In this document: piece by piece, positions 5,995-12,769 of the stretch
Layout of the letters: each line of letters starts with the position of its first letter
How positions within the stretch are numbered: position 1 is the first letter of the stretch
From: Anaerolineales bacterium
GTDB lineage: Bacteria; Chloroflexota; Anaerolineae; Aggregatilineales; UBA2796
Direction: 5' to 3'
Assembly (NCBI GenBank): GCA_015075625.1
Contig: JABTTZ010000001.1
Location: forward strand, 1,302,001 to 1,366,000
Length of the DNA stretch: 64,000 bases
Notes under the pieces: generated by a model
What the model was told of the DNA's origin: nothing
What the model saw: the letters and a program-made list of their open reading frames with translations, nothing else
Databases searched by the model: none
Position numbers and translations under genes: made by a program

Positions 5995-6090
5995 GTGACC
6001 TACTCCGCCAGCTAAAGTCGGCGGCTTCTTGCGAAGCCCCGCGCCATAGCAGCGGCTTCTCAGGCTACGCATGACCCAATGGTCTACGTT
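5995..6090 (-). ncRNA. Predicted right-end omega (reRNA) scaffold of TnpB
   Basis: In IS200/IS605 loci the guide RNA of TnpB covers the 3' end of tnpB and the right element end, with the guide read from flanking DNA. Here the right end has the expected stem-loops: GGCTTC-(4)-GAAGCC, then CCGCC-(10)-GGCGG. The guide would start with TATGTCCGTCCTTGAG, the flank just outside. The RNA's existence is inferred from family knowledge; only the hairpins are seen. Confidence 0.4.
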
Positions 6091-7223
6091 AGCACCTGAC
6101 CGCCTGATCCAGGCGGACTTGGCAAGGCTAAGGCAAGGATATTTATCGCGGCGTTGACATCACGATCCAGTTCAAGCTGACAATGAGGGCAAGAATGCAC
6201 CCGAACAGACAAGGCTTTCGGCACCAACGCACCGCACCCGCTGCACTGCTGAGAGGTATTCCGAGGATTGACATGAACGAGTGCGCAGCCAGCATCTACC
6301 GCTTTGAAGCGCAGCAAGTCATTGAACAGCCCCAGACCAGCATCGTGAGCCGACAGGGAAAGGTGAGTATTGCGCGTCATGAACGCCAAATCAAGGTGTT
6401 CGAGGGCAATTAGACCGTAGTGACGAACCAGCCAGTCGGTTATTTTGTGCCAGAAATCCCTGCGGATGTTGGCGATATGTTCGTGCCGTTTGGCAAGGAT
6501 CATACGGCAGTCGTTGCGGTTTTGTCCGCCCTTTTGGGCGCGTGCCAAACGGCGCTGCGTTCGCCGCAGTTTGTCCAAGTTTGCCCGCAGCCAGCGCGGA
6601 TTGTCGATTTGTGTGCCATCCGAGAGCGTCAGCAAGCGCAGCAGTCCCCTATCCGCACCCACTTGGGGCAGACCGTTGGGTTCTACCAACAGGGGGTCGG
6701 GGACGGCAAACATCAGAAAGACATACCAACCGGTGGCTTTGCGCTTGAGAACCACATGCTTAATTTGCGCTCTATCGGGCAAAAAACGATGCAGTTTGAC
6801 CTTGATTTCCCCGACATTCTGGACATGCAGCAGGAAGCGGTCATACGGCTCATCGTAGTACAGGCTCACCCCGTCGCCATAGGTGTATTCCACGCTATCC
6901 AAGCGATTGGCACCCTTGAAGCGTGGGTAGCCTGGGGTCTCGCCCGCTTTGAGACGACGGAAAAATGCCGCGAACGCCTTATCCAAACGTCGCAGCGTTT
7001 GCTGTACGCTCGAGGCATTGGCGACAATGTTAGCCTGTTTGCGCCACTCGCGGAAGTACGCCCACTGGCTCACCGCCGTCTGCCGCTCGCCGTTGACCTC
7101 GAAAGCCGTCTTGATCTGGCTCAACGCGGCGTTGTACACCTCGCGGTGTTCTTCCAGCAGGCGGGAGAGCAAGACGCGCTCGCGAGGGCGCACGTACAAG
7201 CGGTACGCATAGGTCAGGTTCAT
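6084..7223 (-). CDS. tnpB: TnpB, RNA-guided endonuclease of an IS200/IS605-type element
   Basis: 379 residues, full length for the family. TnpB uses an omega RNA to cut DNA beside a short target-adjacent motif and helps retain the element. The RuvC catalytic triad looks intact: Asp in VGADRGLLRLLTLSDG, Glu in LIALEHLDLAF and Asp in LDRDVNAAINIL. A zinc ribbon CSGCG ... CPHC lies between the second and third. The N-terminal helical part (RLYVRPRERVLLSRLLEEHR, then YPRFKG) is typical. It starts only three bases after the tnpA remnant's stop. Because the triad is complete it may still be active although the partner transposase is broken. Confidence 0.93.
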   Translation of the reverse strand: MNLTYAYRLYVRPRERVLLSRLLEEHREVYNAALSQIKTAFEVNGERQTAVSQWAYFREWRKQANIVANASSVQQTLRRLDKAFAAFFRRLKAGETPGYPRFKGANRLDSVEYTYGDGVSLYYDEPYDRFLLHVQNVGEIKVKLHRFLPDRAQIKHVVLKRKATGWYVFLMFAVPDPLLVEPNGLPQVGADRGLLRLLTLSDGTQIDNPRWLRANLDKLRRTQRRLARAQKGGQNRNDCRMILAKRHEHIANIRRDFWHKITDWLVRHYGLIALEHLDLAFMTRNTHLSLSAHDAGLGLFNDLLRFKAVDAGCALVHVNPRNTSQQCSGCGALVPKALSVRVHSCPHCQLELDRDVNAAINILALALPSPPGSGGQVLT

Positions 7224-10060: not shown

Positions 10061-11152
10061 GTGCGCGTTTTACTCTTATTGGACAATGGCGCGTCGCCGC
10101 TTGCCCGCACCGATTGTGATGTTCTTTTAGCACACTTGGATCGGACGCGGATTCAGCCTATTGTGGCGAGTTTACGCGGCAGTGTTGGCGATATCCACTT
10201 GAAGGGGCGCTTTCGCTTTGACCCGCGCCTGATCTTTCGTCTCCAACGGCTGATCCGCCGCGAAAAGATCGAACTCGTTCACGTTTTGGAACAAGCGGCG
10301 CTGCCCATTGCCGGACGTGCGCGGGCGGCAGGCGTCCCCCTGATTGGGACGATCTACCGCTATGAAGGAGGGACAACCCCCCGCAGTTACTTATTGAGCA
10401 GCCTGCGCTATCGGGTGCTGCTGCAAGGCGTCGATCAGATCACCGTCCCCTTTGAAAATGTCCGGCGGGCACTCCTGTTGCTCTACCGTCATCCACACCC
10501 GATCACGGTGATCAGTCCGGGCTTGCTGGCGCCCGCCAAAGACGAGGCATCGTCCAATCGGGAGGCGCTTGGGCTGCCGGAGGGAGCGCTCATCGTTATG
10601 GTGCTGCCTCCAGAGTTTCCGACCAGTCAGCTTTTGCTGGATCGCGCTGAGCTTGCCCTTGAACTGCTCAAATATTTGATCCGAAAAGTTCCCGATGTCC
10701 ATCTGGCGGTGGTCGGCAGCGGGAACTTTACATCAGCAATGCAGCGGGCGGCGATGAACTACCGTCCGGGCTTGCCGGTGGTGTGGTGCGGCGAACGCAG
10801 CGAAGCGGAGCAGTGGGCGATCCTAGAGCAGGCAGCCGTATACGTTGATGTCGCCTCGGCGGGCGAGGTGTCCCCAGGGTTGATTCGGGCAGCGCTGGCG
10901 GGCAAACCAATTGTTGCCCCAAATATCGTGAGCGTTCATGAGGTGATTGAGACGAACGTCTGCGGTATCCTTGTGGAGGCGCAGAATGCGGCGGAGTTCG
11001 CCGCGCAGATCGCCCGTCTGATGCAATACGAAGGGCTGGCGGGGCGTTTGGGACGGGTGGCACAAAAGCGGGCGGAGGAGCGCTTTTCCGTCGCTGCCCA
11101 AATTCAGGCGCTGACTGTCTTTTACGAACAAACCGTCTATGAGGGACGCTGA
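10061..11152 (+). CDS. Glycosyltransferase family 4-like protein
   Basis: 363-residue GT-B protein. The N-terminal half has LLLDNGASPLARTDCDVLLA; the donor half has HLAVVGSGNFTSAMQRAA and VDVASAGEVSPGLIRAALAG, then KPIVAPNI. In the usual E-x7-E signature the first Glu is kept (GEVSPG) but the second appears replaced by Ala, so the donor site is atypical. Start is GTG 10061; no clear ribosome-binding site. The stop overlaps the start of a 45-codon membrane microprotein gene (TGATG), and an MBOAT gene follows. The trio probably assembles and acylates a surface glycan or glycolipid. Sugar specificity unknown. Confidence 0.78.
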   Translation: MRVLLLLDNGASPLARTDCDVLLAHLDRTRIQPIVASLRGSVGDIHLKGRFRFDPRLIFRLQRLIRREKIELVHVLEQAALPIAGRARAAGVPLIGTIYRYEGGTTPRSYLLSSLRYRVLLQGVDQITVPFENVRRALLLLYRHPHPITVISPGLLAPAKDEASSNREALGLPEGALIVMVLPPEFPTSQLLLDRAELALELLKYLIRKVPDVHLAVVGSGNFTSAMQRAAMNYRPGLPVVWCGERSEAEQWAILEQAAVYVDVASAGEVSPGLIRAALAGKPIVAPNIVSVHEVIETNVCGILVEAQNAAEFAAQIARLMQYEGLAGRLGRVAQKRAEERFSVAAQIQALTVFYEQTVYEGR

Positions 11153-11289
11153 TGAATCTTCTAAAAGGACTCTGGAAACGGCTGATCACCCGTGAGAACC
11201 TCTATGCGCTGTTTCTGTGCGTCGTGCTGATTTTGCTGATCATCGTCACAGCGGAGAGCGCCCCCCAATGGATTTACCAAAATTTCTAG
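11152..11289 (+). CDS. 45-residue single-span membrane microprotein with C-terminal WIYQNF, DltX-like acyl-shuttle candidate
   Basis: A short gene whose ATG overlaps the preceding stop (TGATG), giving 45 residues. A basic N-terminus (KGLWKRLITR) precedes one hydrophobic span (about residues 19-33), so by the positive-inside rule the C-terminus faces out. It ends APQWIYQNF. DltX, the microprotein of the Dlt pathway, is of similar size and topology and ends FIYNEF, whose Tyr carries the D-alanyl group received from the MBOAT DltB. Here Tyr42 would be the equivalent, and an MBOAT gene starts 52 bp downstream. The match is motif, topology, size and neighbourhood, not overall sequence; acyl group and acceptor are unknown. 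Confidence 0.75.
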   Translation: MNLLKGLWKRLITRENLYALFLCVVLILLIIVTAESAPQWIYQNF

Positions 11290-11341
11290 GCAGAGGGCGC
11301 ACATCTAAGCGCCCCAATGCCGCACCGAATTCAACCCGTCG

Positions 11342-12769
11342 ATGACCCTTCTCACCATTCTGATCTTTGCCCTCGGCGCGTTGGTTGTGCGGGCGATTCC
11401 CGTCCGTTGGCGAGGGTGGGCGCTGCTGATGGGCAGCCTGATGGCGATCTATTGGTTGCAGCCAGAACGCGCCCCACTGCGCCCGTTGGGATTCATTCTC
11501 CCTACGCTCGTTCTTGCGGCGGCGTTCCTCGCTTGGCTGCTGACTCGTCCAGACCTAAGCGCACCCTTAAGCAGGGATGATGCCCTTACAGGTATGATTC
11601 TCGGTGGGTGGGTGATCCTCATGGCAGCCGTTGGCGAGGGGCTGCGCCTTGCCGCCCCCGCCCCGCCCATCCTTCAGGTGATCCTCGGACTGGGAGGCGT
11701 GGGGCTGCTTGCCATGTGCCTTGTGCGGGGGGCGGTGGCGGTCAACCGCAATGTCTTGCTCTGGCTGTTTATCGGAGGGATTGTCGCCGTCTTTGTCGTT
11801 CTAAAAAGCGATCCCTTAGCGACGCTTTTGGCGGCATCGCTGCGGGCAGCGGGGGAACGCCCGCTGACATTGGCGGGGGTGGGCGATTTGGGCTGGATCG
11901 GCTTTTCGTATGTCGCCTTTCGGCTCATCCACACGCTGCGAGACCGCCAAATGGGGAAACTTCCGGCGCTCAGCTTGCGGGAATACCTCACCTACCTGAT
12001 CTTTTTTCCGGCGTACACGGCGGGTCCGATAGACCGCGCCGAACGCTTCGCAAAGGACTATCGGGCGCTGCCGCCGTTGGATGCGCCGCGTTTTATCGAG
12101 GGCGTAGGGCGGATTGTTGTTGGGCTGCTGAAAAAGTTTGTGATCGCCGACAGCCTCGCCGTGATCGCGCTCAACGCAACGTTAGCAGAGCAGGCGCAGC
12201 GTCCCCTTCACCTGTGGCTGATCGTCTATGCCTATGCGTTCCGCTTGTTTTTCGATTTCAGCGGCTATTCGGATATTGCCATTGGGATCGCCCGCTTATA
12301 TGGCGTGGCGCTGCCGGAAAATTTCACCCAACCCTACCTAAAGAGCAACATCACCCAGTTTTGGCAGAGTTGGCACGCCACACTCAGCACATGGGCGCGG
12401 TTTTATGTCTTTATGCCTGTCTCGCGCTTTATGCTGACGCGCAAACGAAAACCCGCCCCAGAGGTCGTCGTCCTCACTGCCCACCTGACGACGATGATTG
12501 TCATTGGGCTTTGGCATGGAATTACGGTGAATTTCTTCCTGTGGGGGGTCTGGCATGGTGTGGCGCTGTTCATCCACAAACTCTACAGTGACCGCACACG
12601 GGGGTTTTATCAGCGCTTGGCAGACCGTCCACTTCGGCGGCGGTTGGTTTACGCGGCGGGCGTGCTGCTGACCTTCCATGTCGTGGCGCTAGGGTGGGTG
12701 TGGTTTGCGCTCCCACAGGCTGCGCACAGCCTGCAAACGTTAGGGCGCTTGGTGGGAATCGGCTGGTGA
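11342..12769 (+). CDS. MBOAT family O-acyltransferase, DltB/PatA-like
   Basis: 475-residue polytopic membrane acyltransferase with about 11 spans. Family blocks: FFPAYTAGPIDRAERF, FRLFFDFSGYSDIAIGIARL, YLKSNITQFWQSWHATLSTW and MIVIGLWHGITVNFFLWGVW. Two histidines stand 47 residues apart (His345 in QSWHAT, His392 in GLWHG), the same spacing as the DltB catalytic pair. Such enzymes pass an acyl group across the membrane. Its own C-terminus (LVGIGW) lacks a Tyr hexapeptide, consistent with the motif being on the separate microprotein upstream. No DltA, DltC or SGNH partner is nearby. The end overlaps the convergent methyltransferase gene by 30 bp. Confidence 0.92.
   Translation: MTLLTILIFALGALVVRAIPVRWRGWALLMGSLMAIYWLQPERAPLRPLGFILPTLVLAAAFLAWLLTRPDLSAPLSRDDALTGMILGGWVILMAAVGEGLRLAAPAPPILQVILGLGGVGLLAMCLVRGAVAVNRNVLLWLFIGGIVAVFVVLKSDPLATLLAASLRAAGERPLTLAGVGDLGWIGFSYVAFRLIHTLRDRQMGKLPALSLREYLTYLIFFPAYTAGPIDRAERFAKDYRALPPLDAPRFIEGVGRIVVGLLKKFVIADSLAVIALNATLAEQAQRPLHLWLIVYAYAFRLFFDFSGYSDIAIGIARLYGVALPENFTQPYLKSNITQFWQSWHATLSTWARFYVFMPVSRFMLTRKRKPAPEVVVLTAHLTTMIVIGLWHGITVNFFLWGVWHGVALFIHKLYSDRTRGFYQRLADRPLRRRLVYAAGVLLTFHVVALGWVWFALPQAAHSLQTLGRLVGIGW

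Follow-up and report, generated by a model that had tools for sequence, protein, structure and literature searches.

We propose that a microprotein of 45 codons and the MBOAT encoded just downstream of it form the membrane core of a five-part acylation relay, which would have the architecture of the Dlt pathway, a fatty-acyl-AMP ligase (FAAL) standing in for DltA, and would be widespread in Anaerolineae; we put the probability of this reading at roughly 0.7. The two genes lie in a 64 kb window (the whole stretch of DNA that was analysed, 64,000 nucleotides). The parts of the system exist, are conserved, syntenic and co-occurring, and have the motif and topology signals and the fold classes described below.

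The microprotein and its MBOAT

The microprotein open reading frame (11152–11289, forward strand) has the translation MNLLKGLWKRLITRENLYALFLCVVLILLIIVTAESAPQWIYQNF. Its start codon and the stop codon of the upstream GT4 open reading frame (10061–11152) overlap as TGATG. Further upstream, the window contains an IS605 OrfB/TnpB-like transposase gene (6084–7223, reverse strand; PF07282, PF01385). The microprotein has a single membrane span and ends with the hexapeptide WIYQNF (11269–11286, forward strand), the consensus of which in relatives is WIYQGF; Tyr42, encoded at 11275–11277 of the same strand, is the proposed acyl-carrying residue. Among the open reading frames of at least 35 codons in the window, this one alone has an aromatic-x-Y-x-x-aromatic ending, the chance expectation from first-order Markov shuffles being 0.025 such endings per 64 kb window, none of them with a membrane-span-like stretch.

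Relatives were searched with a microprotein profile (A1) built from 11 sequences and including the C-terminal motif. The initial annotation had made its proposal depend on the microprotein and its terminal Tyr being conserved beside the MBOAT in relatives, and this is what was found: the microprotein is present in 94 of the 396 sampled genomes of the class Anaerolineae, and all of 100 loci retain the Tyr, with F or Y as last residue, a figure which is partly selected for as the motif is contained in the search profile. A phylum-wide sample of 400 genomes gave 34 matches, all of them within the class. All 11 genomes of the family have the MBOAT, and in nine of them the microprotein lies just upstream of it; in a genome of the same genus (G010) a WIYQGF microprotein is found on a different contig from the MBOAT orthologue, and in another family member (G006) the MBOAT is truncated by the contig edge. 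This genome has a single copy of the microprotein. The gene is conserved as a protein, with a median pN of 0.27 against a pS of 0.71, the latter saturated, over 4948 pairs of relatives, and the homologue alignment reveals that conservation covers an N-terminal REN and the membrane span, beyond the tail alone. As the mean charge over 100 homologues is +1.9 for the N-terminal flank of the span and −0.9 for the C-terminal one, the C-terminus is predicted to be extracytoplasmic, in agreement with the initial annotation, for which a cytoplasmic C-terminus would have been fatal.

Concerning known families, the microprotein has no Pfam or NCBIfam match, the DltX profile PF12459 matches neither the microprotein in this genome nor any of 11 homologues at E≤10, and a PDB search with the microprotein profile yielded nothing at E≤10. 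The likeness to DltX is thus one of architecture and not of sequence family: one membrane span, a C-terminus predicted outside and a terminal aromatic-x-Y-x-x-F with an invariant Tyr, in which W replaces F. These features support the microprotein as a DltX-like shuttle candidate. Small genes of this kind are easily missed, and both Pfam and NCBIfam are without a model for it.

The MBOAT (475 residues, 11342–12769, forward strand; PF03062) scores 235 bits with the DltB model TIGR04091, below its equivalog cut-off of 375. DltB is its sole relative among solved structures in a sequence search of the PDB, and the top fold matches of the predicted model of a homologue (L114) are DltB as well. Two histidines align with those of DltB, His345 in the motif FWQSWH (codon 12374–12376, forward strand) and, 47 residues further, His392 in the motif GLWHG (codon 12515–12517, forward strand). 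The protein ends with GRLVGIGW and is without a shuttle tail, so that it has the features of a DltB-like MBOAT (MBOAT fold, two His 47 residues apart, no tail) and not the motif fused to the C-terminus that defines the PatA/AlgI type. Both the 45-codon frame ending in WIYQNF with its DltB-like MBOAT and the separation of tail and MBOAT are therefore as initially annotated, and the latter extends to the relatives, where none of 84 cassette MBOATs is tailed while both His motifs are matched in 81 of the 84. Tailed MBOATs were encountered in three loci (L176, L186 and L117); they end with FIYVQF or FIYFQF (FIYxQF) and have no microprotein directly upstream. The microprotein accompanying tail-less MBOATs and tailed MBOATs being without it, the two arrangements look mutually exclusive.

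The distance from the microprotein stop to the MBOAT start is zero in 25 of 76 loci and a one-base overlap (−1) in eight of 76; among the other junctions there are offsets of 4, 9 and more. At the zero-gap junctions the two genes are in frame, and read-through of the stop codon would yield a microprotein–MBOAT fusion. We prefer stop–start coupling as the simpler explanation, given the offsets of −1, 4, 9 and more elsewhere. L114 has such an in-frame zero-gap junction, and its read-through product was modelled with AlphaFold, the stop codon TAG being set to Q. The model is good for the MBOAT part; the tail has a pLDDT below 50, so that the model is uninformative about docking of the tail in the funnel and lends it no support. 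Two records, which possibly represent one genome (L115:5965-7507 and L217:6438-7980), have the MBOAT coding sequence divided between two frames at an identical position, perhaps by a real frameshift or by a shared assembly error.

Partner genes in relatives and in this genome

We annotated the open reading frames around the microprotein in 79 loci of the class with profiles built for this analysis. In the order that recurs, the microprotein is followed by the MBOAT, the SGNH protein, a facultative GDSL lipoprotein, an acyl carrier protein (ACP) and the FAAL, and in many relatives the five genes lie in one operon, ACP and FAAL directly following the MBOAT–SGNH pair in many loci. An MBOAT is present at 70 of the 79 loci, the SGNH protein at 50, FAAL at 39 and ACP at 38, many of the stretches being cut by contig ends; only about half of the retrieved loci thus show ACP and FAAL close to the microprotein. 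Where 4.5 kb of room was available (67 loci), a downstream MBOAT on the same strand was found in 61 and an SGNH protein in 47. Upstream of the cassette there is often a small lipoprotein together with at least one GDSL-like lipoprotein: a family of the latter flanks the cassette in 44 of the 79 loci, and in 40 of the 79 the small lipoprotein, of about 130–150 residues, lies just upstream of the microprotein (L156–L235 in both cases). A Syntrophaceae contig (L116:5605-12861) contains an MBOAT, an ACP, an AMP ligase and two SGNH-like open reading frames, together with a frame of 52 codons that ends with FVYEEF; this one contig points to analogous cassettes beyond Chloroflexota.

The cassette SGNH protein has an N-terminal transmembrane segment and contains GDSxxWG in 78 of 80 sequences and TDxxxH in 77 of 80. 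Sequence libraries match it weakly as GDSL, and searching the PDB sequences with its profile gave chance matches only. The AlphaFold model of the L113 protein (pLDDT 79) was compared with known structures by Foldseek, which returned three matches with E<0.001: CgnD, the esterase EstL5 and Enterococcus faecium DltD, the last with E=9.3e-4. Thus, the protein has what is expected of an SGNH acyltransferase partner, namely GDS and DxxH-like blocks, the SGNH fold and an N-terminal membrane anchor. The cassette gene of 81–88 residues encodes a phosphopantetheine-type carrier (PF00550); the ACPs of relatives score 21–26 bits with the DltC models TIGR01688 and NF003464, short of the cut-offs of 52 and 68, and the ACP of this genome is recognised only by the ACP model built here. 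For the ligase of 560 residues, the best NCBIfam match in relatives is a fatty acyl-AMP ligase subfamily, at about 340–356 bits and below its cut-off of 600. In the PDB, the ligase of this genome matches FAALs with 216–208 bits against at most 116 for CoA ligases, the closest solved structures being the FAALs 3pbk, to which it was aligned, and 3kxw; with the DltA model TIGR01734 it reaches 28.5 bits, for a cut-off of 560. By sequence comparison, the cassette ligase is therefore closest to FAALs, rather than to CoA ligases or DltA.

Microprotein and FAAL also go together at the level of genomes. Among the 396 genomes of the class, 94 have the microprotein and 96 the FAAL; both are present in 87, the microprotein only in seven, the FAAL only in nine and neither in 293 (Fisher p 6e-68, with genomes treated as independent and kinship ignored). 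This count includes genomes that carry the two genes at a distance from each other. The present genome is one of them, its five genes lying at three separate places: the ACP–FAAL pair is at C1:1620874-1622857, and a cassette-type SGNH orthologue, 55% to the cassette protein of G009, is at C1:1811641-1812933. A scan of the genome for an SGNH partner and an acyl carrier, as advised in the initial annotation, thus recovered both. Its statement that dltA, dltC and a DltD-like gene are missing holds within the window but not for the whole genome, given this orthologue and the ACP–FAAL pair. True DltA, DltD and DltX were not found in the genome by profile, the best matches to TIGR01734 in this genome reaching at most 87 bits for the cut-off of 560, and DltD (PF04914) having none. 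A true Dlt operon was rejected on these grounds. True DltD was found in only 10 of the 396 class genomes, so that the ordinary Dlt pathway does not account for the system. The assignment of the genome to Chloroflexota, initially given as likely, can be narrowed to the class Anaerolineae, which is well supported. On the other hand, the suggested link with the adjacent GT4 glycosyltransferase was not borne out, as none of the relatives examined has a GT4 homologue upstream of the microprotein; this gene was accordingly rejected as part of the conserved set. Downstream of the microprotein, relatives have only two weak glycosyltransferase matches, on the opposite strand.

This genome has a second DltB-like MBOAT, likewise tail-less, which forms a pair with the SGNH gene next to it on the downstream side; the pair is located right after a cytidylate kinase gene (G000:C3:74733-77091, corresponding to L029:8734-11092), with no microprotein near it. 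Pairs of this type occur in several genomes of the family. The microprotein and the ACP–FAAL pair may serve both MBOATs in trans.

Proposed relay and alternative explanations

Acyl-Tyr shuttle chemistry, with transfer from the MBOAT to the Tyr of the shuttle and further to the SGNH protein, is established for DltBXD and PatAB (PMC12148441), and by analogy with these systems we propose the same transfers here; all chemistry of the relay, the identity of the donor, the order of transfer and the acceptor are inferred. The FAAL would adenylate a carboxylic acid (most probably a fatty acid), which it would load onto the dedicated small ACP. At the cytoplasmic face of the membrane the DltB-like MBOAT would accept the acyl group from acyl-ACP, and by means of its two histidines it would transfer it to the extracytoplasmic Tyr in the WIYQGF tail of the microprotein. 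The tail would then present the acyl-Tyr to the Ser of the membrane-anchored SGNH protein, which would pass the acyl group to a glycan or glycolipid of the envelope. That a FAAL is accompanied by an ACP points to acyl-ACP as donor and to a fatty acid as the acyl group; the former is likely, the latter less certain. Weighing against the relay are the MBOAT score below the DltB equivalog cut-off, the scattering of the genes in this genome, the second MBOAT–SGNH pair with no microprotein beside it, and the many loci without ACP and FAAL nearby. It is conceivable, though somewhat less likely than not, that in Anaerolineae the relay moves entire fatty-acyl chains through the membrane in the form of acyl-tyrosine esters and attaches them to envelope polymers, giving a lipid-modified outer surface in bacteria that have no conventional outer membrane.

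Three other explanations have to be weighed. In the one that deserves most attention, although we regard it as unlikely, the relay is PatAB-like: the MBOAT uses an acyl-CoA such as acetyl-CoA, the microprotein merely replaces the fused tail, and ACP and FAAL have another role. Other MBOAT–SGNH pairs do use acyl-CoA (PMC12148441), and about half of the microprotein loci, this one included, are without ACP–FAAL nearby. Against this stand the co-occurrence of microprotein and FAAL (87 genomes out of 94 and 96), which persists even where the genes are apart, the position of ACP and FAAL directly after MBOAT–SGNH in many loci, and the sequence and fold of the MBOAT, which are closest to DltB, a user of an acyl carrier protein. 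The comparison with DltB could also be taken further, to a divergent but true Dlt pathway carrying out D-alanylation of a teichoic-acid-like polymer. The shared five-part architecture and the DltB-like MBOAT agree with it; a ligase so far below the DltA cut-off and with FAALs as PDB matches, the lack of DltD here and its rarity in the class, and a DltX profile without match make it the least probable of the three.

Scarcely more probable is that the microprotein serves the MBOAT as a subunit for structure or assembly, in which case Tyr42 is not an acyl carrier and the MBOAT acylates its acceptor directly. Indeed, conservation of the N-terminal REN and of the membrane span, not of the tail alone, is what such a subunit would display; however, it leaves unaccounted for the invariant Tyr and fixed terminal F/Y, the genetic linkage of the SGNH protein, the identity of the ending with the shuttle motif FxYxxF save W for F, and the apparent mutual exclusion of microprotein and tailed MBOATs. 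We therefore retain the five-part relay as the preferred explanation.

Comparison with known acyl transfer systems

In the open-licence literature, DltX is the only free-standing acyl-shuttle microprotein that we found described; no description of the present relay and no paper treating an acyl carrier protein, an MBOAT and an SGNH protein together were found there, and the sole paper retrieved for Chloroflexi and DltB concerns quorum sensing by Gram-positives. A relay of Dlt architecture that relies on a new family of shuttles and on a FAAL-based donor module thus appears to be undescribed. If the proposed relay is correct, a second, sequence-unrelated shuttle family with a FAAL–ACP donor would make the Dlt architecture a general scheme of acyl export, beyond D-alanine, and FAALs would have a new use outside PKS/NRPS. 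The envelope of Chloroflexota is multilayered, without outer-membrane machinery and of unclear composition (PMC13319060), and the cassette would be a concrete candidate, open to testing, for the origin of acylated material at its surface.

With the Dlt pathway of Gram-positive bacteria (DltX-DltA-DltB-DltC-DltD) the system shares an AMP-forming ligase, a carrier protein, a tail-less MBOAT with His residues 47 positions apart, a single-span microprotein with a terminal aromatic-x-Tyr-x-x-Phe and a membrane-anchored SGNH protein. It differs in that the ligase is of the FAAL type rather than DltA, the SGNH protein is not DltD by profile, the microprotein, with its WIYQGF ending, is unmatched by the DltX profile, the MBOAT is below the DltB cut-off, and the host belongs to Chloroflexota. 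PatAB, AlgIJ/X, WssHI and similar systems likewise combine an MBOAT, an SGNH protein and a C-terminal Tyr shuttle motif; in these, however, the motif belongs to the MBOAT itself, to which it is fused by way of two extra helices (PMC12148441), whereas here it is found on a separate protein, with ACP–FAAL. The donor of PatA is acetyl-CoA, and according to the same 2025 study the MBOAT–SGNH pathways other than Dlt are without a shuttle microprotein (PMC12148441). Finally, a ligase best matched to FAALs (3pbk, 3kxw, FadD32) with a small ACP adjacent to it recalls the modules of FAAL and stand-alone ACP; FAALs have been described in PKS and PKS/NRPS contexts (PMC8460268), whereas here the two genes belong to an envelope acyltransferase cassette.
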